Below are positions 6,750 through 19,028 of a stretch of 64,000 nt of DNA, one piece after another. Positions within the stretch are counted from its first letter, which is position 1. Each line of letters opens with the position of its first letter. The notes under the pieces are model-generated. The model searched no databases. It worked only from the letters and a program-made list of their open reading frames with translations, and was not told the origin of the DNA. The translations under genes and the position numbers were made by a program. Location of the stretch: contig NZ_KB899092.1 in NCBI RefSeq assembly GCF_000378045.1, positions 191,236 to 255,235 on the forward strand. Direction: 5' to 3'. The DNA comes from Marinobacterium rhizophilum DSM 18822 (lineage in GTDB: Bacteria > Pseudomonadota > Gammaproteobacteria > Pseudomonadales > Balneatricaceae).

Positions 6750-6810
6750 TTGAACATCCGTAGCGGCAGGTTTCATCAAGGCTTTTCTGAACTGGTTTGA
6801 GGTGCGTTAC

Positions 6811-8331
6811 ATGTGCGGTATTGTCGGCGTTGTTGCCAAATCCTACGTCAATCAGACGATTTTCGACGCGCTTACGGTGCTGCAGCACCGGGGCCAGGAT
6901 GCGGCCGGCATGGTGACCGGTGAGGGGAACCGGTTTTTTCTGCGTAAGGATAACGGCCTTGTAAACGAGGTATTCCGCACCCGTCACATGAAGCGCCTTG
7001 CCGGTAACGCCGGTATTGGTCATGTGCGTTACCCAACGGCCGGTAGCTCCAGCGCTGCTGAAGCGCAGCCGTTTTATGTCAATTCGCCCTACGGCATTGC
7101 GCTGGCCCACAATGGCAACCTGACCAACGCCGATGCACTGGCCGACGAAATGTTCCGTGCCGACCTGCGTCATATCAACACCACCTCCGATTCGGAAGTG
7201 CTGCTCAACGTCTTCGCACACGAATTGCAGGGTCAGCGTAAGTTGCAGCCCACGGCCGACGATATGTTCAGCGCTGTGAAACGCGTTCACGAGCGCTGCA
7301 CCGGTGGCTATGCGGTGGTGGTCATGATCACGGGTTACGGCATTCTGGCGTTTCGTGACCCAAATGGCATACGTCCGCTGTGCTACGGCAAACGCGAGAC
7401 CGAAACCGGCGAAGAGTATATGGTTTCGTCCGAAAGCGTGGCGCTGGATGTATGCGGATTCACCCGCGTGCGGGATATAGAGCCCGGTGAAGCCATTTAC
7501 ATCGACATGGATGGCAACGTCCATACCCAGCAGTGCGCACGTAACACCCGATATGCGCCCTGCCTGTTTGAATATGTCTATCTGGCACGGCCTGACTCCA
7601 TTATTGATGACGTAAACGTGCATATGTCCCGCATGCTGATGGGGGAAAAGCTCGCCGCCAAGGTGCTGCGTGAGCGTCCGGACCACGATATCGACGTGAT
7701 TATCCCCATTCCTGATACCAGCCGGACGGCTGCGCTGGAAATGGCCAAGTCCCTAAAGGTTGATTTTCGCGAAGGCTTTATCAAGAACCGTTATATCGGC
7801 CGTACATTTATCATGCCGGGGCAGGGCGAGCGCAAGAAGTCGGTGCGCCGCAAGCTTAACCCCATTGAGATGGAGTTCCGCGGCAAGGTGGTGATGCTGG
7901 TGGATGACTCCATCGTGCGCGGTACCACGTCCAAGCAGATCGTCCAGATGGCGCGGGACATGGGTGCCAAGAAGGTTTACTTCGCATCGGCATCCCCCGC
8001 GGTACGCTTCCCCAACGTATATGGCATCGACATGCCAGCGGCGAACGAGCTGATCGCCCATGGCCGTACGGAAGAGGAAGTGGGCGCCTATATCGGTACC
8101 GACTGGATGCTGTTTCAGGAGCTGGACGACCTCAAGGCGTGCGTCAGCGCAGGTAATCCGGCAATTCGCGAGTTCGATACCTGCGTGTTTGATGGCAAGT
8201 ATGTAACAGGCGATGTCGATGGTGACTACCTGGCGCGGCTCGAGGCCAAGCGCAACGATGCGGCCAAGTCGGATGACGAAGTTGACACCGAAAGCAATGA
8301 GTCGGCTGATCTGCACACCAAAATCGATTAA
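6811..8331 (+). CDS. purF: Amidophosphoribosyltransferase PurF
   Basis: PurF (506 residues) makes 5-phosphoribosylamine from PRPP and glutamine, the first committed purine step. I chose the ATG at 6811 because it puts Cys at residue 2 (MCGIVGVV), which must become the N-terminal nucleophile after Met removal; an in-frame GTG nine bases earlier would bury it. The glutaminase domain carries HVRYPTAG and NGNL. The PRPP loop [17 protein letters not shown] lies in the C-terminal half. A GAGG ribosome site fits the chosen start. Confidence 0.96.
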
Positions 8332-8349
8332 CAGAGGACATCGCGCAGC

Positions 8350-9561
8350 ATGAAAAAATTCGAGCGCGAAGAACGTATCCAGTTTGATGCGACCGGCTAC
8401 GAGTTCGCTACCCTGGCGGTGCGCTCGGGTCAGCAGCGCACCGATGAAGGCGAGCATGGCGATCCGATTTTCACGACGTCGAGCTTTGTCTATTCCAGCG
8501 CCCGCGAGGCGGCCGCCCGGTTTTCCGGTGATGAAGAGGGCAATATCTATTCCCGCTTCACCAATCCCACGGTACAGGCTTTTGAGCGCCGCATTGCGGC
8601 GCTTGAAGGCGCCGAGCGTGCCGTGGCCACGTCGTCCGGCATGGCCGCGATTCTGAGTACCGTACTGTCATTGCTCAAGGCGGGTGATCATGTGGTGTGC
8701 TCGCGCAGTGTCTTTGGGTCCATCGTGTCACTGTTCGACAAATACCTGAGCCGCGCCGGCATTGAAACCACCTATGTCGACCCAACCGACAATGATGACT
8801 GGCGCAATGCGATTCGCCCCGAGACCCGGTTGTTCTTCCTGGAATCGCCGTCCAACCCGCTGGCACAGCTGGCCGATATCCCGGCCGTGGCGGCCATCGC
8901 CCACGAGCGGGATATCCTGCTGGCGGTCGACAACTGTTTCTGTACACCGGCACTGCAGCAGCCGCTGGCCCTGGGGGCTGATATCATCATCCACTCGGCC
9001 ACCAAATTTCTGGATGGCCAGGGGCGTTGTGTGGGTGGCGCGGTTGCCGGCCCCGAGGGCCTGATGGCCGAAGTGTTCGGCTTTATACGCACCGGTGGAG
9101 CCTGCATGAGTCCATTCAATGCCTGGGTCTTCATGAAAGGTCTGGAAACCCTCAAGCTGCGCATGGACGCGCACTGCGCCAGTGCCATGGCGCTGGCGCA
9201 GTGGCTGATTGAGCAGCCGGGCATCGACAAAGTGTACTACGCAGGTCTGCCGGACCACCCGCAGCATGAACTGGCCAAGCGTCAGCAGAGCGCTTTCGGG
9301 GCAGTCGTCTCGTTTGAAGTGAAGGGCGACCGCGAAGCCGCCTGGCGCTTCATTGATGCGACGCGCATGCTGTCGATCACCGGTAACCTGGGTGATACCA
9401 AGAGCACCATCACGCATCCGGGCACGACGACCCACGGGCGCATGACGGCTGCAGACCGGGCCCGCGCCGGTATCCGCGACAACCTGATCCGCGTCTCGGT
9501 AGGGCTTGAGGACCTGGCGGATATCAAGCAGGACCTGCAGCTTGGACTTGAGGCGCTCTGA
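8350..9561 (+). CDS. metZ: O-succinylhomoserine sulfhydrylase MetZ
   Basis: This 403-residue Cys/Met-metabolism PLP enzyme most likely makes homocysteine directly from O-succinylhomoserine and sulfide. The PLP lysine is in SATKFLDGQGR (about residue 219). The N-terminal GDPIFTTSSFVYSSAREAAARF and the C-terminal GTTTHGRM...IRVSVGLEDLADI are typical. The purF-metZ neighbourhood matches Pseudomonas, where this enzyme is MetZ rather than MetB/MetC. It lies 18 bases after purF with a GAGGA ribosome site. Confidence 0.9.
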   Translation: MKKFEREERIQFDATGYEFATLAVRSGQQRTDEGEHGDPIFTTSSFVYSSAREAAARFSGDEEGNIYSRFTNPTVQAFERRIAALEGAERAVATSSGMAAILSTVLSLLKAGDHVVCSRSVFGSIVSLFDKYLSRAGIETTYVDPTDNDDWRNAIRPETRLFFLESPSNPLAQLADIPAVAAIAHERDILLAVDNCFCTPALQQPLALGADIIIHSATKFLDGQGRCVGGAVAGPEGLMAEVFGFIRTGGACMSPFNAWVFMKGLETLKLRMDAHCASAMALAQWLIEQPGIDKVYYAGLPDHPQHELAKRQQSAFGAVVSFEVKGDREAAWRFIDATRMLSITGNLGDTKSTITHPGTTTHGRMTAADRARAGIRDNLIRVSVGLEDLADIKQDLQLGLEAL

Positions 9562-9637
9562 TCAGCTGACGATTAATCGGACGACTGGGCGTCTGTCGTC
9601 GCTGTTGGTTGCTGCGCCTGTGGTGCTGGAGAGCGCC

Positions 9638-10165
9638 TCAGCCACCGGCGCAGAGGTATTGCGCCTCGATATGGTGCAACGCGCCGGCGGGGCGTAATTG
9701 ACTGCTTTTGAGGCTGAACATGTCAGCCTCAAAACAGAATGCCTGGCCATAAAAGCGTGCGGCTACATGTTCCAGAACGGTACTGAGGCGATTGCTCGGG
9801 CATCTGCCCAGCGTAATGTGGGGAATGAAGCGGCGTTGCTGCAGCGGGATACCGGCGGCGCGCAATGCGCCACCAATCTGGTGCTGCAGTCGCTCCAGTG
9901 AAGGCTGTGGGTCCACCCCGAGCCATATGACGCCGGACGCAAACTGTCCCACGCCCTCGCAACGCAGGTTCATTGGCGAAAACTCGATCTGCTCCAGTGC
10001 GCTGTAAATGGCCTCGAGCCGGTGGGCCGGCTGCTCACCGAGAAAGTGAAGTGTGATATGCATGCGCTCGGGCGCCGTCCAGTGCAGATGACGCACCGGC
10101 TGCTGCAGGCGGCCGATAACGTCCTGTAGCCGGTCGGGCAGATCAATGGCCACAAAAAGTCGCAT
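9638..10165 (-). CDS. thpR: RNA 2',3'-cyclic phosphodiesterase (2H family) ThpR
   Basis: This 175-residue protein of the 2H phosphoesterase family (LigT-like) has two HxT motifs, HITLHFLGE (about residue 40) and HITLGR (about residue 122), which form the active site opening 2',3'-cyclic phosphates. The N-terminus MRLFVAIDLPD and a strong GGGAGGG ribosome site support the start at 10165. It is convergent with metZ and divergent from dusC; a TATAAT box at 10194-10199 lies in the short dusC-side gap. Confidence 0.9.
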   Translation of the reverse strand: MRLFVAIDLPDRLQDVIGRLQQPVRHLHWTAPERMHITLHFLGEQPAHRLEAIYSALEQIEFSPMNLRCEGVGQFASGVIWLGVDPQPSLERLQHQIGGALRAAGIPLQQRRFIPHITLGRCPSNRLSTVLEHVAARFYGQAFCFEADMFSLKSSQLRPAGALHHIEAQYLCAGG

Positions 10166-10231
10166 AACATCCCTCCCTTAATTCTGATCACCGTATAATA
10201 TGCGGTTTTCCACTGTTTAGATGAATACGAC

Positions 10232-11188
10232 GTGAAAATCATACTGGCACCGATGGAAGGCGTGGTCGACTACCTGATGCGTGATGTGCTGACCCGCATC
10301 GGCGGTATCGATCTGTGTGTCACCGAATTCGTTCGCGTAAGCCAGAATCTGCTGCCCGACAGTGTTTTTTATCGCCTGGCGCCCGAGTTGCTGCGTGGCG
10401 GTACCACGCCGAGCGGAGTGCCGGTGATCGTGCAGTTACTGGGCAGTGATCCTGAGCTGATGGCCGCCAATGCCGAGCGTGCAGCAGCGTTGGGTGCGCC
10501 CGGAATTGATCTTAATTTTGGCTGCCCCGCCAAAACGGTCAATCGTAACCGTGGTGGTGCCGTGCTGCTGGAAACGCCGGCAGATGTACATGGCATTGTG
10601 GCCGCGGTAAGGGCTGCGGTTCCTGCGCATATTCCGGTCACGGCCAAGATGCGTCTCGGATACAGCGACAAGGCGCTGGCGCTGGACAATGCCCAGGCCA
10701 TCTTTGAGGCCGGGGCCGATGGTCTGGCGGTGCATGCCCGTACCAAAGTGGAGGGGTATCGACCGCCGGCCTACTGGGAATACATCGCCCAGATTCGTGA
10801 GGCCATTTCCATACCGGTAACCGCCAATGGTGAGGTCTGGAGCTGGGATGACTACCAGCGCTGTCGCGAGGTCAGTGGCTGCGAGGATGTCATGATCGGC
10901 CGGGGCCTGATCTCAAGGCCGGATCTTGCCCGTTCCATCAGGCGCCGCCTGCAGGGTGAAGATGAAGCCGGCATTGACTGGCAGGAAATGCAGGGTGTAT
11001 TGCTCGACTATTTCGACCAGATCGTGGCTGACAAGGTACGTGGTTATGTCCATGGCCGCCTTAAGCAGTGGCTGCATCAGCTGAAAAAACACTACCCCCA
11101 GGCAGAGGACCTGTTCAGCCAGGTCAAGACGCTGCGCGATATTGAGCCCATTCGCCAGCTGCTGCTCGAGCAGCGCGCCGCCGCCTGA
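10232..11188 (+). CDS. dusC: tRNA-dihydrouridine(16) synthase DusC
   Basis: This 318-residue flavin enzyme reduces uridine in the tRNA D-loop. The FMN barrel starts with MKIILAPMEGVVDYLMRDVLT; the catalytic Cys is in DLNFGCPAKTVNRNRGGAVLL. VHARTKVEGYRPPAYWEYI and VMIGRGLISRPDL are typical of the DusC branch rather than DusA or DusB. The start is a GTG directly downstream of a TATAAT-containing promoter region shared with the divergent thpR. Confidence 0.9.
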   Translation: MKIILAPMEGVVDYLMRDVLTRIGGIDLCVTEFVRVSQNLLPDSVFYRLAPELLRGGTTPSGVPVIVQLLGSDPELMAANAERAAALGAPGIDLNFGCPAKTVNRNRGGAVLLETPADVHGIVAAVRAAVPAHIPVTAKMRLGYSDKALALDNAQAIFEAGADGLAVHARTKVEGYRPPAYWEYIAQIREAISIPVTANGEVWSWDDYQRCREVSGCEDVMIGRGLISRPDLARSIRRRLQGEDEAGIDWQEMQGVLLDYFDQIVADKVRGYVHGRLKQWLHQLKKHYPQAEDLFSQVKTLRDIEPIRQLLLEQRAAA

Positions 11189-11202
11189 CCGGTCAAGGCG
11201 CT

Positions 11203-12297
11203 TCAGGCGCTGCGGGCGTGAATGCGCACCGGCATGCGTCGAGCGCCCCAGGTGCCCGGGCCTGCTTCAAAATGCCCCGGCACCTGTGTGCCGCAGTGGC
11301 TGCATTGTCCTGCCGGGTTCAGATTCCATTCCCCAAGCTGATACCAGTCCCGCTCAATGAGCAGTTCGCCGCAGTCCGGACACCAGGTGGAACTGCCTGT
11401 CCTGTCGTGCACGTTTCCGGTATAGACATACTTTAATCCCTGCTCCATTGCGATGCGCCGTGCCCGGGTCAGCGTCGACGGGGGCGTGGATGCCTTGTCG
11501 AGCATCTTCCAGTCTGGATGGAAGGCGCTGAAGTGCAGCGGCACGTCTGGCCCCAGGTTCTCGAGGATCCACTGGCACATGGCCTCGATTTCGCTGTTGC
11601 TGTCGTTTTCATCGGGAATCAGCAGATTGGTGATTTCGAACCACACATCGGTTTCGTGGCGCAGGTACTTCAGTGTATCGAGCACCGGAGCCAGCTCGCC
11701 GCCGCAGATTTTCTTGTAGAATCGCTCGGTAAATGCCTTGAGGTCGACGTTGGCGGCATCGATATGGCGGTAGAACTCGGCCCGTGGCTCGGGGCAGATG
11801 TAACCTGCGGTGACGGCGACGGCGCGGATATCACGCTCACGGCAGGCATCGGCGACGTCCATGGCGTACTCCATGAAGATGACCGGATCGTTGTAGGTGA
11901 AGGCAATCGAGCGGCAGCCCAGTCGCAGGCAGGTGTCCGCGAGATCCTGTGGCGACGCCGAGTCGGCGAGGGTATCCATCTCCCGTGACTTGCTCATGTC
12001 CCAGTTCTGGCAAAACTTGCACGCCAGGTTGCAGCCCGCGGTGCCGAACGACAGTACCGGAGTACCAGGCAGAAAATGGTTCAGCGGCTTTTTCTCGATC
12101 GGGTCGACACAGAAGCCGCTGGAGCGGCCATAGGTGTACAGCATGATCTGGTCATTTTCCCGCCCGCGCACGTAGCACAGGCCACGCTGGCCCTCGCTTA
12201 ACTTGCAAAAGCGCGGGCACACATCGCACTGAATCTTGCCGTGATCAACCTGATGCCAATACCGGGTCGGGACCGGTTTTATATCTGAAGCCTGCAT
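11203..12297 (-). CDS. AmmeMemoRadiSam system radical SAM enzyme
   Basis: This 364-residue protein is related to pyruvate-formate-lyase activases. It has three cysteine groups: an N-terminal CDVCPRFC, the radical SAM site GTAGCNLACKFCQNW (CX3CX2C, about residue 80) and a C-terminal zinc-ribbon-like pair CPDC...CSHC. That arrangement, plus the neighbouring Memo and AMMECR1 genes, identifies the third member of the AmmeMemoRadiSam set; its substrate is unknown. I took the start at 12297 (MQASDIKPVPTRYW) for its GAGG ribosome site; a longer in-frame start at 12369 is less likely. It diverges from the Memo gene and converges on dusC. Confidence 0.88.
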   Translation of the reverse strand: MQASDIKPVPTRYWHQVDHGKIQCDVCPRFCKLSEGQRGLCYVRGRENDQIMLYTYGRSSGFCVDPIEKKPLNHFLPGTPVLSFGTAGCNLACKFCQNWDMSKSREMDTLADSASPQDLADTCLRLGCRSIAFTYNDPVIFMEYAMDVADACRERDIRAVAVTAGYICPEPRAEFYRHIDAANVDLKAFTERFYKKICGGELAPVLDTLKYLRHETDVWFEITNLLIPDENDSNSEIEAMCQWILENLGPDVPLHFSAFHPDWKMLDKASTPPSTLTRARRIAMEQGLKYVYTGNVHDRTGSSTWCPDCGELLIERDWYQLGEWNLNPAGQCSHCGTQVPGHFEAGPGTWGARRMPVRIHARSA

Positions 12298-12514
12298 GCT
12301 GTTGCCTCGTTCTGTTCTGTTCTGCCCTGTATAAAGTTTAGTCAAAGAGTTGCGGTACCGGGGCTGCATGCGGTGGCGACGTCGTACTGCGGGCTATACT
12401 TTTAATAGCGCGTTGGGGGCGAAGCCCAGGTGGTCAGCTGGGGCTGAGTTTGTTGGAGTCGCTCGGGCTTGAAGCAAGCGTGCAGGTCACTCTATCAGCG
12501 TGGGAGGCTTGAAA

Positions 12515-13294
12515 ATGGGAGTACGACAAGCGGCCGTGAGTGGTACTTTTTATCCCGGGGCCAGGGGCGAGCTGGGGTCTATGGTCCAGCAGTTGCTTGG
12601 CGACAATGAACAGCAGGGCGAGCCGCCAAGGGCGCTGATCGTGCCCCATGCCGGACTGATTTATTCAGGCCCCGTGGCCGCCAGCGCCTACAGTCTGTTG
12701 CGCGCCAGCGCCGAGCGATTTCAGCGGGTACTGCTGCTGGGGCCCAATCACCGGGTGCCGCTGCGGTCCATGGTGGTGCCCACCGCCGACGGCTTTGACA
12801 CGCCCCTGGGGATGATGGCGCTGGATACCGAATGTCTGCGGGAGTGGGTGGATCGGGGCTGGGTGGACTATGACGACGAAGCCCATCGGCTGGAACACTG
12901 CATCGAAGTGCAGCTGCCGTTCCTGATCACTATCAATCCGCGCTGGAAGCTGCTGCCGGTGATCGTGGGGCAGGTGGGGCCTGCTGCCGTTGCCAGGCTC
13001 GTGGGGCTCGGGCTGGATGATCCTGACACCCTGGTTGTCATCAGCAGCGATCTGAGCCATTACCATAGCTATACAGTGGCACAGCGCATCGATGCCGCCA
13101 CCTCCCAGCACATTGAACAGCTGGATCCGGGTCTGCATTCAGAGCAGGCCTGTGGCTGTAATGCCGTGAATGGTCTGTTGAGTGCGGCGGCCCAGCGTGG
13201 CCTGAGTGTACGCTGTCTCGATCTGCGAAATTCCGGGGACACGGCGGGTTCCCGGGACAGGGTGGTGGGATACGGAGCCTATGTCTTCAACTGA
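12515..13294 (+). CDS. AmmeMemoRadiSam system protein B (Memo-like)
   Basis: This 259-residue Memo family protein has the family residues in VPHAGLIYSGPVAASAYS (about residue 42), LLGPNHRV, EHCIEVQLPFL and ISSDLSHYHSY, a set of His/Asp/Cys ligands shared with extradiol-type dioxygenases. Human MEMO1 has been described as a metal-binding protein. The bacterial role is not established. The ATG at 12515 sits eight bases after GGGAGG; an in-frame GTG at 12500 overlaps that ribosome site and is rejected. The next gene (protein A) overlaps by 14 bases, so the two are coupled. Confidence 0.88.
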   Translation: MGVRQAAVSGTFYPGARGELGSMVQQLLGDNEQQGEPPRALIVPHAGLIYSGPVAASAYSLLRASAERFQRVLLLGPNHRVPLRSMVVPTADGFDTPLGMMALDTECLREWVDRGWVDYDDEAHRLEHCIEVQLPFLITINPRWKLLPVIVGQVGPAAVARLVGLGLDDPDTLVVISSDLSHYHSYTVAQRIDAATSQHIEQLDPGLHSEQACGCNAVNGLLSAAAQRGLSVRCLDLRNSGDTAGSRDRVVGYGAYVFN

Positions 13295-13955
13295 TGCTCG
13301 ACCCGCTTGCTCTGATGCCGGCGGCAGGGTGCCTGAAAGCCTGCAGTTGAACAGGGATCTGTGTCGTCGTCTGCTGGATGTGGCACGCCAGGCCATCATA
13401 GTGGGTGCCGAGTCGGGGCAGGTGCTGGAGCCGGATCTTGAACATGTGCCCAAGGTGTTCCGTGAGCCTGGTGCGAGCTTTGTAACCCTCTACCGGCGTA
13501 TGGGGCAGGAACGGCTGTTGCGCGGTTGTGTCGGCTCCCTCGAGCCGCGCAGGCCGCTGCTGCAGGATGTGGCGTTTAATGCGTACTGCAGCGCCTTTAA
13601 GGATCGGCGTTTTGCGCCGGTGACTCCGGGCGAGTTGTCCACCCTTGAGCTTGAGCTGTCGATACTGTCGCCACTGGTTGCGCTGCACTTCACCGACGAG
13701 GCCGACTTGCTGCGCCAGCTGGTGGCGGGTGAGGATGGGCTTGTGATTGAGTGTGGGGAGCATCGCGGCACTTTCCTGCCTTCAGTCTGGGGGCAGTTGC
13801 CGAATGTCGATGATTTCTGGATTCATCTCAAGCACAAGGCGGGACTGGCGGCAGACTTCTGGAGTCCCAAGTTGCGCTGCTGGCGCTATCGGGTGCTGAA
13901 GATCCGCGAAGCGGAACAGGTCGAGTTCGATGATTGCGAACCGCAAAGCCAGTAA
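13281..13955 (+). CDS. AmmeMemoRadiSam system protein A (AMMECR1 domain)
   Basis: This 224-residue protein carries an AMMECR1 domain (about residues 25-210) with the diagnostic LRGCVGSLEPRRPLLQDVAFNAYCSAFKD region and LELELSILSP. AMMECR1-domain proteins have no settled enzymatic role; the highly conserved LRGC(V/I)G loop suggests a catalytic or binding surface. The ATG at 13281 starts inside the end of the Memo gene. Gene overlap and the divergent radical SAM gene make a compact three-gene module. Confidence 0.88.
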   Translation: MSSTDARPACSDAGGRVPESLQLNRDLCRRLLDVARQAIIVGAESGQVLEPDLEHVPKVFREPGASFVTLYRRMGQERLLRGCVGSLEPRRPLLQDVAFNAYCSAFKDRRFAPVTPGELSTLELELSILSPLVALHFTDEADLLRQLVAGEDGLVIECGEHRGTFLPSVWGQLPNVDDFWIHLKHKAGLAADFWSPKLRCWRYRVLKIREAEQVEFDDCEPQSQ

Positions 13956-14022
13956 GAGGGTATCCATCACACGACTTGCCGGGTGCTGAGTCACACGTCG
14001 CCGACGATCACGGGAGACTGTA

Positions 14023-14361
14023 ATGAAGCCTGTCAGCGCAGTAAATCTGTTGAGCCAGCTACCGGCGGCGCAGCCGAACGAAGTGTTTGAAAGCCTGTTG
14101 CGGCACCCCGGCTTTCATCTGGAGCGGATTCTGTCCTGGGGGCAGGTGACCCCCGAGGGCGAATGGTACGATCAGGCACAGAATGAATGGGTGCTACTGC
14201 TTGCGGGCGCGGCACGGCTGCTTGTCGAGGGGCAGGAAGCGCTTGCGCTTGGGCCGGGTGATGCTGTGTTGCTGCCGGCACACTGCCGCCATCGCGTGAT
14301 CTGGACCGACCCGGATCAGGCCACGGTCTGGCTGGCGCTGCATTACATGTCCGAGGCGTAA
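14023..14361 (+). CDS. Small cupin-domain protein
   Basis: This 112-residue single-domain cupin has the motifs GEWYDQAQNEWVLLLAGAARL and LGPGDAVLLPAHCRHRV. The metal-binding His pattern is degenerate in the first motif (only the Glu and later His/Cys are obvious), so it may not be an active enzyme; specific function unknown. It follows protein A by 67 bases on the same strand and could be cotranscribed, which gives a weak functional link to the AmmeMemoRadiSam genes. Confidence 0.75.
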   Translation: MKPVSAVNLLSQLPAAQPNEVFESLLRHPGFHLERILSWGQVTPEGEWYDQAQNEWVLLLAGAARLLVEGQEALALGPGDAVLLPAHCRHRVIWTDPDQATVWLALHYMSEA

Positions 14362-14434
14362 GCCATCAGGGTTACAGAGTGAGCGACCGGAATATTGTGA
14401 CAGCGCTTAGGCTGTGGCCGGGATTCAGGCCGGC

Positions 14435-14977
14435 ATGTCGGCGAATCGCTTAAGGGAGGGTGGAACCATCGAATCGCACATTGAGGTTGTGGAGGGCGAT
14501 ATTACGCGCCTGCAGGTGGATGCGCTGGTCAATGCTGCCAATAACAGCCTGCTCGGCGGTGGCGGTGTGGATGGTGCCATTCATCGCGCGGCCGGTCCTG
14601 AGCTGCTGCGTTACTGTCGTACCCTGGGGGGGTGTGCGACGGGTGAGGCCAAGTTGACGCCGGGCTTCAATCTGCCGGCGGCCTGGATTGTACATACCGT
14701 GGGGCCTGTGTGGCACGGCGGTGATCGGGGCGAGGCGTCGTTGCTAGAGCATTGTTATCGCAGTGTGTTTGAGTGTCTGCAGACCATTGATGTCGAGTCG
14801 CTGGCATTTCCGGCGATCAGCTGTGGTGTCTATGGCTATCCGGTGCAGCAGGCAGTTCAAATCGCGGTTCAGACAGTGCGGGAGCAACTGAGGCTGCGCA
14901 AGCAGCCGTTGCGCGTTCTGTTTTGCTGCTTTGATGCCAGCATGGCTGAACTGTACAGGCAGGCGCTCAAGCGCTGA
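14435..14977 (+). CDS. Macrodomain protein, O-acetyl-ADP-ribose deacetylase-like
   Basis: This protein of about 170-180 residues has a YmdB-type macrodomain: VVEGDITRLQVDALVNAANNSLLGGGGVDGAIHRAAGPEL, then GEAKLTPGFNLPAAWIVHTVGP and AFPAISCGVYGYPVQQA. The Asn and Asp of NAANN...GVDGAIH fit an active ADP-ribose hydrolase of the MacroD/YmdB class. The ATG at 14435 is assigned conservatively but has only a weak ribosome site. A very strong AGGGAGGG at 14453-14460 lies seven bases before an in-frame ATC at 14468, which would give the usual short N-terminus, so the true start may be non-canonical. It follows the cupin on the same strand. Confidence 0.85.
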   Translation: MSANRLREGGTIESHIEVVEGDITRLQVDALVNAANNSLLGGGGVDGAIHRAAGPELLRYCRTLGGCATGEAKLTPGFNLPAAWIVHTVGPVWHGGDRGEASLLEHCYRSVFECLQTIDVESLAFPAISCGVYGYPVQQAVQIAVQTVREQLRLRKQPLRVLFCCFDASMAELYRQALKR

Positions 14978-15024
14978 AACGATATGCCATCGGGCTGGTG
15001 CGGGTGGTCGCGGAAAGTCGGCGT

Positions 15025-15053
15025 AATACCGGGCACGCGCAGTGCCCGGTATT
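15025..15053. terminator. Perfect 12-bp hairpin between convergent genes
   Basis: AATACCGGGCAC and GTGCCCGGTATT flank a five-base loop, between the convergent macrodomain and hsp20 genes. There is no long T-tract on either side, but position and stability suggest a shared transcription end. Confidence 0.5.
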
Positions 15054-15065
15054 TGATGCGGGAAA

Positions 15066-15494
15066 TCAGGCCGGATTTTCGATCTCAATCAGGCGCGGCT
15101 TCATCGCCTCGGGAACTTCGTGTACCAGGTCGACGTGCAGCAGTCCGTTATCCATGCTCGCCTTTACAACGCGCACATGGTCGGCAAGCTGAAAGCGCCG
15201 CTCAAAGCTGCGCGCGGCAATACCCTGGTAGAGGTATTTGCGATCACCCGAATCCTGTTGCTTCTGGCCGACGATGATCAGGATGTCCTGTTCACTCTTG
15301 ATGCTGAGTTCAGAATTGTCGAACCCGGCGACAGCCATCGTTATGCGGTAATGGTTTTCGTCCAGCAACTCGATGTTGTAGGGCGGGTACGCCGGCTGGC
15401 CCTGTTCATTGCGGCTCGCGTTGTCCAGCAAGGAGGCGAGGCGGTCAAAGCCGATGGCGGAGCGGTACAGGGGGGACAGGTCAAAATCTCTCAT
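15066..15494 (-). CDS. ibpA: Small heat shock protein, IbpA/Hsp20 family
   Basis: This 142-residue holdase chaperone starts MRDFDLSPLYRSAIGFDRL, nearly identical to the IbpA N-terminus. The alpha-crystallin domain occupies about residues 35-130 (YNIELLDENHYRITMAVAGF...SFERRFQLADHV); the C-terminal I-x-I-like motif is RLIEIENP. Two ATGs compete: 15494 is eight bases from the CGAGG ribosome site and matches the family start, whereas 15500 is only two bases away. Upstream are a sigma-32-like promoter and a ROSE-like thermometer, so heat control is expected at transcription and translation. It binds unfolded protein in the cytoplasm and hands it to DnaK/ClpB. Confidence 0.93.
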   Translation of the reverse strand: MRDFDLSPLYRSAIGFDRLASLLDNASRNEQGQPAYPPYNIELLDENHYRITMAVAGFDNSELSIKSEQDILIIVGQKQQDSGDRKYLYQGIAARSFERRFQLADHVRVVKASMDNGLLHVDLVHEVPEAMKPRLIEIENPA

Positions 15495-15578
15495 GGTCAT
15501 ATCCTCGTTGAGCAATATGGGTGCCCGCACGCTGCGGGCTTACAGGACGCGTACCTTCATCGAAGCGATCACGTCTGA
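15495..15578 (-). promoter_or_regulatory. ROSE-like RNA thermometer in the hsp20 5' UTR
   Basis: Reading the minus strand, the leader ends ATTGCT-CAACG-AGGAT just before the start codons. ATTGCT can pair with AGGAT, burying the ribosome site, with the G of UUGCU bulged or mispaired, the signature of ROSE thermometers upstream of ibpA-type genes. A strong hairpin GCCCGCA/TGCGGGC precedes it, as in the multi-hairpin ROSE layout. No folding program was run; the pairing was done by eye. Confidence 0.6.
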
Positions 15579-15584
15579 TTTTTT

Positions 15585-15613
15585 ATATGAGGATAAGCGG
15601 AAAAAATTTCAAG
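15585..15613 (-). promoter_or_regulatory. Sigma-32-type promoter of hsp20
   Basis: On the minus strand the sequence is CTTGAAA, 14 bases, CCTCATAT. This is close to the heat-shock sigma factor consensus CTTGAAA / CCCCATNT in both boxes and in spacing. It would start a leader of about 80 bases that contains the ROSE-like element. Confidence 0.7.
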
Positions 15614-15722
15614 CCGGCGGGAAGCGAAATTAAGGTACATAGCGCGGGCGTCGCAAAGTCGAATCATTCCTGGGCTCGGCCGGGCAGGTGCTGTCGCAGC
15701 GGGAGAGGGGTTGATTTGCGCG

Positions 15723-15766
15723 AGCCCAGGGAAGCGGTTCCTGTACAGGTGCCGCTTCCCTGGGCT
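15723..15766 (-). terminator. Perfect 15-bp hairpin downstream of the DUF2185 gene
   Basis: AGCCCAGGGAAGCGG pairs perfectly with CCGCTTCCCTGGGCT. The 14-base loop itself contains the palindrome CCTGTACAGG. It lies just after the minus-strand DUF2185 stop codon; no T-tract follows, so it is a probable 3' end or mRNA stabiliser rather than a classical terminator. Confidence 0.5.
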
Positions 15767-15783
15767 GAATTCAATGTGAGGTT

Positions 15784-16188
15784 TTAGCCGCTGAACTGTT
15801 CAGGGTCGTTGGTAATGGTGACGTCGATACTGGAGCTCGGGATACGGAAATCATAGACCCGTTCCCAGTCTGATCCGGGTGCCCGTTCCCAGACGGTGCC
15901 GGCATTGAAGGCCAGTTTTTCCTCAAGGCTCGCATCCATGCCGTAGAGTTTTTCCAGTGGTACGGGCGTCAGGTTGGCGACTTCGTCCTGCAGGAATTCA
16001 TCGTCCTCGTAGCCGCTGAACAGGCGCCAGCCGGTATCGTTCAGGTGCTCGGGAACGGTCTTGTACATAAAGCGTACCGGCAGCTTTTCATCGAAAATCA
16101 GCCGTGATACCAGCGCCAGGAAGCCGCTCTTGGTTTGGCCGGTTTCGTTGTTGCTGTTCGGGGTTTCGGGGGTTGTTGCGTCGCTCAT
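15784..16188 (-). CDS. DUF2185 (Imm33-type) protein
   Basis: This 134-residue acidic soluble protein matches DUF2185, a family also classified as Imm33-like immunity proteins: FDEKLPVRFMYKTVPEHLNDTGWRLFSGYEDDEFLQD and the later LYGMDASLEEKLAFNAGTVWERAPGSDWERV. The start at 16188 has an AGG ribosome site; the first 20 residues are low-complexity and probably disordered. No polymorphic toxin gene is adjacent on either side, so a housekeeping or orphan immunity role cannot be decided. Confidence 0.75.
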   Translation of the reverse strand: MSDATTPETPNSNNETGQTKSGFLALVSRLIFDEKLPVRFMYKTVPEHLNDTGWRLFSGYEDDEFLQDEVANLTPVPLEKLYGMDASLEEKLAFNAGTVWERAPGSDWERVYDFRIPSSSIDVTITNDPEQFSG

Positions 16189-16343
16189 AAGGGCCTCCGG
16201 TAAAAATGCCGGCCTATTATACAGTGAATGGCGGTGTGTATGCAGGGATGCCACCGTGGTGTGGCCGCAAAGCTGCATGGGGTACTGCGCTGGCGCGTTG
16301 GCAATGGGTGTCCTGTGAAGCTGGTTGCCGGTTTGTCAGGCGC

Positions 16344-16373
16344 ATAAAAAAACCCTGCCGAAGCAGGGTTTTC
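16344..16373 (-). terminator. Rho-independent terminator of acnB
   Basis: Minus strand: AAAACCCTGC-TTCG-GCAGGG followed by TTTTTT. A stable stem with a UUCG tetraloop and a T-tract directly after the acnB stop; a classical terminator. Confidence 0.92.
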
Positions 16374-16397
16374 AGGTCAGCTAGATGCCGGCGGCAA

Positions 16398-19028
16398 TCA
16401 GGCTTCTACGGTCGGAATCACGCTGGAAGCGGATTTGACATAGTTATCCATCTGATGGAAGTTCAGGTAACGGTAGATATCACCGGACATGCTGTTGATG
16501 CGCTGGGCGTACTCCATGTACTCGTCAACGCTCGGCAGCTTGCCCATGACCGCTGCGACGGACGCAAGCTCAGCCGATGCCAGGAAGACATTGGCGCCAT
16601 TGCCCAGGCGGTTGGGGAAGTTGCGCGTCGAGGTGGATACAACGGTGGAGTTGTCTGCCACCCGTGCCTGGTTACCCATGCACAGTGAGCATCCCGGTGT
16701 TTCGATACGTGCCCCAGCGCGGCCGAAGATGTTGTAGTAGCCTTCTTCGGTCAGCTGAGCGGCATCCATCTTGGTCGGCGGTGCAATCCACATGCGGGTC
16801 GGCAGGGTCTGGCCCGAGCTTTCCAGCAGTTTGCCGGCGGCGCGGAAGTGACCGATGTTGGTCATGCAGGAACCCACGAAGACTTCGTCGATTTTCTGGC
16901 CGGCGACTTCGGACAGCAGGCGGGCATCGTCCGGATCATTCGGCGCGCACAGGATAGGTTCCTTGATGTCGGCCAGATCGATTTCGATGATTTCTGCGTA
17001 TTCGGCGTCGGCGTCGGCACGCATCTGGCTCGGGTTGGCGAGCCATTCTTCCATCGCCTTGATGCGGCGGGAGATGGTGCGAACATCACCGTAACCTTCG
17101 GAGATCATCCACTTGAGCATGACGATGTTGGACTGCAGGTACTGGGCGACAGACTCATCAGACAGGGTGATGGTGCAGCCGGCAGCAGAACGTTCTGCAG
17201 AGGCGTCAGACAGCTCGAATGCCTGTTCGACAGTGAGGTTTTCCAGACCTTCGATTTCCAGTACGCGACCGGAGAATGCGTTGATCTTGCCAGCCTTGGC
17301 AACGGTCAGCAGGCCCTGCTTGATACCGTAGTAAGGGATGGCGTGAACCAGGTCGCGCAGGGTGATACCCGGCTGCATTTCGCCTTTAAAGCGCACCAGA
17401 ATGGATTCCGGCATGTCCAGCGGCATAACACCGGTGGCGGCAGCAAAGGCAACCAGTCCGGAACCGGCTGGGAAGGAGATGCCCAGCGGGAAGCGGGTGT
17501 GGGAGTCACCGCCGGTGCCGACAGTGTCAGGCAGCAGCATGCGGTTGAGCCAGGAGTGGATAACGCCGTCGCCCGGGCGCAGGGACACGCCGCCGCGGTT
17601 CATGATGAAGTCCGGCAGGGTGTGGTGGGTGTTGACGTCGACCGGCTTCGGATAGGCCGAAGTGTGGCAGAAGGACTGCATGGTCAGGTCGGCGGAGAAG
17701 CCGAGGCATGCCAGGTCTTTCAGTTCGTCGCGGGTCATTGGGCCCGTGGTGTCCTGGGAGCCGACAGTGGTCATCTTCGGTTCGCAGTACATGCCGGGGC
17801 GCACGCCCTCAAGGTTGCAGGCCTTGCCGACCATTTTCTGTGCCAGGGTGTAACCCTTGCCGGTGTCGGCGGGCTGTTCCGGAGTGCGGAACAGGTCGGC
17901 CGGTGCCAGCCCCAGTGCCTGGCGGGCACGGTCGGTCAGGCCGCGGCCGATGATCAGCGGAATACGGCCGCCGGCACGGACTTCGTCCAGCAGGACCTGG
18001 GTCTTGAGGCCGAAGCGGCACAGCTCTTCACCGGTGTCGTGATTCTTGGCAACGCCTTCGTACGGGTACACGTCGATGACATCGCCCATGTTGAGCTTGT
18101 CGACCGGCATTTCGATCGGCAGGGCGCCAGCATCTTCCATGGTGTTGTAGAAGATCGGGGCAATCTTGTTGCCGAAGCAGTAGCCGCCGGCGCGCTTGTT
18201 CGGCACGTGCGGGATGTCGTCGCCGAAGAACCAGAGTACGGAGTTGGTGGCGGACTTGCGTGAAGAACCGGTACCGACCACATCGCCGACGTAGGCTACG
18301 GGGAAGCCCTTGGCCTTGACGGCTTCGATCTGGCTCAGCGGGCCAATTTCGCCGTGCTTGGCAGGTTCGATGCCGTCACGGGTCATTTTCAGCATGGCAT
18401 TGGCGTGCAGCGGGATGTCCGGGCGTGACCAGGCATCGGGGGCTGGCGACAGGTCGTCGGTGTTGGTTTCACCGGATACCTTGAAGACGGTTACGGTGAT
18501 CTTTTCAGCGACTTCGGGCTTGCTGGTAAACCATTCGCCATCGGCCCAGGACTGCAGCACCTGCTTGGCAAACTCATTGCCGGCTTCGGCCTTTTCCTGC
18601 ACATCGTGGAATGCATCGAACATCAGCAGGGTGTGGGACAGGGCCTTGGCGGCGGTAGCGCCCAGGGCTTCGTTGTCCAGGCAGGCGATCAGCGGCTGAA
18701 TGTTGTAGCCGCCCAGCATGGTGCCGAGCAGTTCGGTTGCCTTAACCGCGTCGATCAGCGGAGAAGAGGCTTCTCCGGTGGTGATGGCGGCCAGAAAGCC
18801 GGCTTTTACATAAGCGGCCTGGTCAACACCGGCGGGGACACGGTTGCTGAGCAGATCCAGCAGTGTTTCTTCTTCACCGGCGGGCGGATTTTTAAGCAGT
18901 TCAATCAGGGCTGCGGTCTGTTCCGGATCCAGGGGCTTCGGCGGAATGCCTTCCTGGGCACGTTCTTCTACATGTTTGCGATATGCTTCAAGCACGATAT
19001 AGCCCTCATCAGTTGTCGCTTCTGCCAA
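16398..19028 (-). CDS. acnB: Aconitate hydratase B
   Basis: This 876-residue bifunctional aconitase/2-methylisocitrate dehydratase acts in the TCA and methylcitrate cycles. The AcnB HEAT-like N-terminal domain is present (EAYRKHVEERAQEGIPPKPLDPEQTAALIELL), unlike AcnA. The iron-sulfur cysteines lie in VFVGSCMTNIGHFR and PGCSLCMGNQARV, and the substrate loop in SNRVP and GTGSSRKSATNSV. Length and both termini fit the family. A 400-base upstream gap holds its promoter region and a perfect inverted repeat. AcnB is also a known moonlighting RNA-binding protein. Confidence 0.97.
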   Translation of the reverse strand: MAEATTDEGYIVLEAYRKHVEERAQEGIPPKPLDPEQTAALIELLKNPPAGEEETLLDLLSNRVPAGVDQAAYVKAGFLAAITTGEASSPLIDAVKATELLGTMLGGYNIQPLIACLDNEALGATAAKALSHTLLMFDAFHDVQEKAEAGNEFAKQVLQSWADGEWFTSKPEVAEKITVTVFKVSGETNTDDLSPAPDAWSRPDIPLHANAMLKMTRDGIEPAKHGEIGPLSQIEAVKAKGFPVAYVGDVVGTGSSRKSATNSVLWFFGDDIPHVPNKRAGGYCFGNKIAPIFYNTMEDAGALPIEMPVDKLNMGDVIDVYPYEGVAKNHDTGEELCRFGLKTQVLLDEVRAGGRIPLIIGRGLTDRARQALGLAPADLFRTPEQPADTGKGYTLAQKMVGKACNLEGVRPGMYCEPKMTTVGSQDTTGPMTRDELKDLACLGFSADLTMQSFCHTSAYPKPVDVNTHHTLPDFIMNRGGVSLRPGDGVIHSWLNRMLLPDTVGTGGDSHTRFPLGISFPAGSGLVAFAAATGVMPLDMPESILVRFKGEMQPGITLRDLVHAIPYYGIKQGLLTVAKAGKINAFSGRVLEIEGLENLTVEQAFELSDASAERSAAGCTITLSDESVAQYLQSNIVMLKWMISEGYGDVRTISRRIKAMEEWLANPSQMRADADAEYAEIIEIDLADIKEPILCAPNDPDDARLLSEVAGQKIDEVFVGSCMTNIGHFRAAGKLLESSGQTLPTRMWIAPPTKMDAAQLTEEGYYNIFGRAGARIETPGCSLCMGNQARVADNSTVVSTSTRNFPNRLGNGANVFLASAELASVAAVMGKLPSVDEYMEYAQRINSMSGDIYRYLNFHQMDNYVKSASSVIPTVEA

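Follow-up and report, generated by a model that had tools for sequence, protein, structure and literature searches.

The AmmeMemoRadiSam locus of Marinobacterium rhizophilum DSM 18822 was analyzed in a window of 64,000 nucleotides (nt), i.e., the whole stretch from position 191,236 to 255,235 of contig NZ_KB899092.1; positions below are counted from its first letter. The locus at 11203-14977 is an ordinary member of a known gene set whose function is unsolved, and a cupin gene and a macrodomain gene follow it. With a probability of about 0.82, the Amr locus occupies a variable slot of an inherited chromosomal block, the cupin and macrodomain are separate tenants of this slot, and the trio works as outlined below. 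Within the searches made, the linkage of Amr and macrodomain genes did not extend beyond a single family and a single block, and a shared address is the better explanation for it. Because one member of the trio is the bacterial counterpart of human MEMO1, following a wrong lead on its function costs work. The five genes, with radical S-adenosylmethionine (SAM) enzyme AmrS at the left, are as follows.

11203..12369, minus strand: AmrS, AmmeMemoRadiSam radical SAM enzyme (TIGR04337, 658.9 bits, cut-off 220)
12500..13294, plus strand: AmrB, Memo-like protein (TIGR04336, 243.4 bits, cut-off 26)
13281..13955, listed as open reading frame (ORF) 13206-13955, plus strand: AmrA, AMMECR1-domain protein (TIGR04335, 170.7 bits, cut-off 99)
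14023..14361, plus strand: small cupin of the 2opk type, 112 amino acids (aa) (Pfam Cupin_2, 33.8 bits, cut-off 27.2)
14414..14977, plus strand: YmdB/MacroD-type macrodomain (NF001664, O-acetyl-ADP-ribose deacetylase, 223.4 bits, cut-off 200)

All three Amr proteins were judged against NCBIfam curated cut-offs and lie above them. The preliminary description of this DNA, made from the letters alone, had named a complete trio, and it was right in this (11203-13955), as in placing AmrS divergently on the minus strand from AmrB-AmrA on the plus strand, and the cupin (14023-14361) and macrodomain (14414-14977) downstream on the strand of AmrA. The source genome has a single AMMECR1 gene and a single Memo gene, both in this locus. 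The opposite orientation of AmrS is shared with 44 of the 59 named loci that have an AmrS match (L119 counts among the 44 on a weak 37% match). The window differs from the known system by the extra downstream cupin and macrodomain, an arrangement known from four genera of one family.

The block has the order purF-metZ-thpR-dusC-[slot]-ibpA-imm33-acnB and recurs through much of the family, where purF, metZ and acnB are what we take these genes to be. It spans 6802-19028 in the window and was found at loci L152-L231 in relatives. In some genera thpR or ibpA is missing, and acnB is often beyond the fetched stretch. The genes that border the slot and end the block in the window are listed here.

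10232..11188, plus strand: DusC-like tRNA-dihydrouridine synthase, left slot border (Pfam Dus, 237.9 bits, cut-off 20.4)
15066..15530, minus strand: IbpA-type small heat-shock protein, usual right slot border (HSP20, 71.6 bits, cut-off 20.8)
15784..16278, minus strand: Imm33-domain protein, right slot border (PF09951, 61.2 bits, cut-off 25.4)
16398..19028, minus strand: presumably aconitase B, end of block (876-aa ORF)

The specific models for two of the borders gave scores below their cut-offs, i.e., NF007838 DusC with 303 bits (cut-off 395) and IbpA with 187.9 bits (cut-off 212). The acnB-like gene adjoins imm33 in the relatives whose fetched stretch extends that far, and the Imm33-domain protein is a regular neighbor of ibpA or acnB across the family.

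The content of the slot was compared in 116 genomes of the same family as the window. The YmdB-type macrodomain was counted from matches of at least 130 bits, which held 38 of 44 genomes and left out G016, G017, G060, G073, G078, and G109. The cupin was counted in 52 of 57 genomes, and G008, G014, G089, G102, and G111, with expectation values (E) from 2.5e-4 to 8.7e-4, were left out together with a second weak cupin match in G025. AmrS was counted only over its cut-off, in 61 of 70 genomes, and the match in G055 is cut by its contig. AmrA was in the block in 47 of the 61 genomes that carry it, and the fetched stretch of the other 14 showed none of the block genes. The macrodomain had a block gene in its fetched stretch in 34 of 38 genomes, and none was found within this stretch in G018, G039, G103, and G063. 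In the five genomes of genus g9, the block genes found near the macrodomain were those of the right-hand part only, and the macrodomain lies 0.1 to 3.8 kb from imm33.

The tenants of the slot are often found apart. Amr and the macrodomain are together in the slot in 24 genomes, G032 being counted across a contig break. Amr is there without the macrodomain in 23 genomes (G002, G014, eight of g5, eight of g7, and five of g11), and the macrodomain without Amr in 10. Among these 10, G061, G064, G068, and G105 have no AmrA match anywhere in the genome, and G034, G052, G053, G054, G056, and G057 carry AmrA elsewhere. The cupin is in the slot without Amr in G062, G064, and G068, and without both Amr and macrodomain only in G062. 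In three further loci examined, the tenants were 667-aa and 627-aa chemotaxis-receptor-like ORFs and a 290-aa AraC-like ORF, all named by eye. The slot thus looks like a small cargo hot spot exchanging Amr genes, cupin, macrodomain, chemotaxis receptors and an AraC-like regulator.

The linkage itself is real in the family. AmrA and the YmdB-type macrodomain are both present in 32 of the 116 genomes, and in 24 of these 32 they are within 1.3 kb on the same strand. The cupin lies between them in 15 of the 24, and the remaining nine, all of genus g2, are without it. The neighborhood survey proposed earlier therefore did find the linkage in relatives, i.e., AmrA-cupin-macrodomain in three genera and AmrA-macrodomain in a fourth. 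It is reasonable to consider that the linkage is conserved because all these genes occupy one variable slot, itself part of a block that is inherited.

Change of the genes along the family was followed on a backbone tree of 55 genomes, built from four block proteins by a quick method with a simple model. The rows were under half filled in 13 of the 55, and 13 genomes without a usable backbone protein were left off. The tree groups the genomes by genus, with g15 held at low support (34). It needs five changes for AmrA in the slot, three for the macrodomain and four for the cupin; therefore, the 24 adjacent genomes amount to a handful of events. Macrodomain and slot AmrA gave three independent pairs, with 0.5 changing the same way and 0.6 the other way. 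Slot macrodomain and whole-genome AmrA also gave three pairs (same way 0.3, other way 0.4). The tree of the macrodomain itself has weak support and a very long row, G039. Its genera are mostly together, g9 is scattered, and G013, G105, and G064 stand apart from their own genera, so this tree fits vertical descent only roughly.

Outside the family, the linkage was searched in a class-wide draw of 370 genomes, which included G000, with no other family member seen among the listed matches. With G000 included, AmrA was in 185 genomes, the macrodomain at E of 1e-20 or less in 162, and the cupin at E of 1e-15 or less in 57. The neighbor test used the listed matches, i.e., 149 of 184 AmrA, 148 of 161 macrodomain and 56 of 56 cupin genomes, with G000 excluded. 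AmrA and macrodomain were neighbors in none of the 80 listed genomes with both. They share a contig in 13 of the 80, where the closest pair is 33 kb or more apart, and in the other 67 each is on its own contig, so that neighbors might be concealed by a contig break. Cupin and AmrA were neighbors in none of the 29 listed genomes with both, and cupin and macrodomain in none of 22.

Named AmrA loci were taken as the best 80 of at least 585, with 1.5 kb or more of sequence downstream of AmrA in 74 of them. These 80 comprise 58 loci with the trio, 20 with AmrA and AmrB, one with AmrA alone and one with all five genes. This sole five-gene locus, L073, carries the same block. Other conserved neighbors of Amr were sought in the same 80 loci, and the ORF clusters present in at least 15 of them were the trio and four apparent shadow frames, judged by eye. 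No linkage of Amr, cupin and macrodomain outside one family or one block was found among the class-draw listings and these best 80 loci.

The earlier suggestion had gone from the linkage to a modification pathway involving ADP-ribose or a nucleotide-like product. In its full form, the trio would make or modify a nucleotide-like or ADP-ribosylated product, which the cupin and macrodomain would bind or hydrolyze. Several observations speak for such a five-gene pathway and weigh against a mere shared address. The adjacent genes are on one strand and their order, AmrA-[cupin]-macrodomain, is constant in all 24 adjacent genomes. Coupling is tight, since the AmrA and macrodomain frames abut or overlap in g2, and in G029 and G033 the cupin frame directly adjoins that of AmrA. 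A promoter and terminator scan, uninformative as a whole (1 and 4 sites found where shuffles gave 1.5 and 3.6), showed no terminator-like site in the window between AmrA, cupin and macrodomain. AmrA and macrodomain occur jointly, i.e., both in 32 genomes, AmrA only in 29, macrodomain only in 6 and neither in 49, which gives a Fisher p of 1.4e-6 with kinship ignored. A functional link drawn from this p value was rejected, because the value is blind to kinship and the tree-aware tests, with two or three pairs, gave no trend. Three independent pairs are in turn too few for a firm negative on the link between AmrA and macrodomain, and the tree counts only weakly against it. Against the pathway stand the 10 genomes with the macrodomain in the block without Amr and the 23 with Amr without the macrodomain, the missing co-change in the three pairs on the tree, the absence of neighbors among the 80 listed class-draw genomes with both, and the presence of the macrodomain family in genomes without AMMECR1, including the control E. 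coli. The five-gene pathway is thus very unlikely. Of the earlier suggestion, the conserved linkage stood, in four genera, but the step from linkage to pathway gained no support from the tests. A tempting lead is weakened in this way, as the association with the macrodomain seems to reflect a common address and not ADP-ribose chemistry.

A narrower grouping, in which cupin and macrodomain make up a separate two-gene unit, e.g., a sensor and an ADP-ribose hydrolase, with Amr merely adjacent, draws on their being neighbors in 18 of the 33 family genomes with both, including G064 and G068 without an AmrA match. It is unlikely as well, because g2, g9, and G034 have the macrodomain in the block and the cupin elsewhere or not found, the slot of G062 has the cupin without the macrodomain, and the two were never neighbors in the 22 listed class-draw genomes with both. 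The tree gave only two independent pairs for them on branches of good support, with 0.4 changing the same way and 0.2 the other way. A bolder version of the five-gene pathway is hardly probable, i.e., that one gammaproteobacterial family recruited the cupin and an ADP-ribose hydrolase into one coupled operon with the Amr enzymes, which would produce, sense and remove a nucleotide-derived product of the Amr reaction, with genomes lacking a part using a copy elsewhere or having lost the step. The reading as separate long-term tenants is kept: the window would hold an ordinary complete AmmeMemoRadiSam locus in the variable slot of a vertically inherited block, and cupin and macrodomain would be on the Amr transcript here probably only through their downstream position on the same strand.

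The members of the trio keep their characteristic sites. AmrA was found in 61 of the 116 family genomes, AmrS over its cut-off in 61, and both in 60; this co-occurrence count covered AmrA and AmrS. The AmrS ORF has 388 aa as listed, and the TIGR04337 model begins at residue 35. The radical SAM motif C113-x3-C117-x2-C120 is conserved in 95% or more of the 51 aligned family rows, some of them partial, as are the N-terminal C48, C51, C55, and C65 and the C-terminal C330, C333, C356, and C359. Solved structures related to AmrS were sought, and none was found at E of 1e-6 or less.

In AmrB, H50, H84, and C218 are kept in at least 95% of 61 aligned family rows, and the His/His/Cys columns of alignment A3 hold in 57 of 58, 56 of 56 and 57 of 57 rows. 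These residues align with the metal ligands H49, H81, and C244 of human MEMO1, with a numbering offset derived from structure comparison of a model described below. According to PMC11081632, MEMO1 binds iron through H49, H81, and C244, dioxygenase activity was not detected, and the Cys replaces the Glu iron ligand of extradiol dioxygenases. The His-His-Cys iron site of MEMO1 is thus present in bacterial AmrB, for which iron binding is predicted, and it is almost invariant across the aligned bacterial AmrB proteins. AmrB differs from MEMO1 in that its gene adjoins the AmrA and AmrS genes. In AmrA, the LRGC cysteine is present in 51 of 51 rows and is also invariant in 16 relatives.

AmrB and AmrA are also found as natural fusions, in 22 ORFs at 21 places; many of the fusion-bearing stretches were fetched for their long frame, so this number is no estimate of frequency. 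The fusions have about 445-486 aa and come from several lineages, i.e., L096, L108, L115, L120, L190, L221-L225, L233, L234, L238-L243, L246, and L247. As single-chain proteins, they are usable for biochemistry. The L120 fusion, from another gammaproteobacterium, was modeled by AlphaFold2 with alignment A3 (88 rows), with a predicted local distance difference test score of 95.5 and a predicted template modeling score of 0.81. Its Memo part has the fold of human MEMO1 (7kq8, 7l5c, 7m8h, and 3bcz) with Z 35.2 and root mean square deviation (rmsd) 1.7 over 257 residues. It also resembles extradiol dioxygenases of the LigB, DesB and aminophenol types (Z about 12 to 16), from which it differs in having a Cys where they have the Glu iron ligand, a change that PMC11081632 describes for MEMO1. 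The AmrA part resembles archaeal AMMECR1 proteins, with 1vaj as the best match (Z 23.8, rmsd 1.6, 183 residues).

The likely working of the trio can be outlined. The radical SAM cluster of AmrS would modify a substrate, and AmrB, as a His-His-Cys iron protein of extradiol-dioxygenase fold, would act with AmrA as one unit in the next step, as suggested by the overlap of the two genes in the window and by their fusion elsewhere. No experimental function of the trio was reported in the titles or abstract openings of the papers listed on it.

The overlap of AmrB and AmrA noted in the preliminary description is real but smaller than the listed frames give, i.e., 14 nt and not 89. AmrA probably starts at the internal ATG at 13281, because the sequence around it, a PM-S(T/P)-like stretch, is common to 16 aligned AmrA relatives. 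The longer listed frame from 13206 consists mostly of AmrB codons in another reading frame.

The AmrS gene stands elsewhere in some relatives. In genus g10, it lies outside the slot in G058, G059, G065, and G067, and in G063, where AmrB is at the very start of its contig, it is on another contig. In G004 and G011 of g2 (L167 7098-8224 and L195), the AmrS beside AmrB is broken by stops and an intact AmrS is encoded elsewhere, which suggests that a second copy took over from the resident one.

The macrodomain is a predicted O-acetyl-ADP-ribose deacetylase or ADP-ribosyl hydrolase, as far as its sequence tells. It matches the YmdB/MacroD macrodomains of solved structure (5cb3, 1spv, and 2x47) over nearly the whole domain, with E from 1.2e-48, for the best match 5cb3_A, to 1.1e-47, and no notable difference from them was seen in the window protein. 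Of 38 aligned family sequences, at least 95% retain the GGGGVD loop. The true start of the gene may lie downstream of the GTG at 14414, and an in-frame ATG is at 14435.

The first motif of cupins is usually HxH...E. The cupin of the window reaches the Cupin_2 cut-off with W-Y-D-Q-x3-E in this place, not the canonical metal motif, and its solved relative is 2opk_A (108 bits, E 2.6e-30). It had been called degenerate, which holds for this non-canonical motif but not as a sign of decay. With D50, Q51, E55, and H90 invariant in the 16 relatives of alignment A1, the protein represents a separate, conserved family.

RNA families and tRNAs were sought in the window, and none was found. Relatives of the cupin on plasmids were found in 54 of 72,556 records. 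Burroughs et al. 2019 (J Biol Chem 294:10211) reportedly described wider gene contexts of Memo and tied it to nucleotide-base and isoprenoid modification. Among the best 80 named loci, ORF clusters resembling IspD and IspF, named by eye, flank Amr in 9 and 8 loci, respectively, including L136, which agrees with the isoprenoid suggestion.

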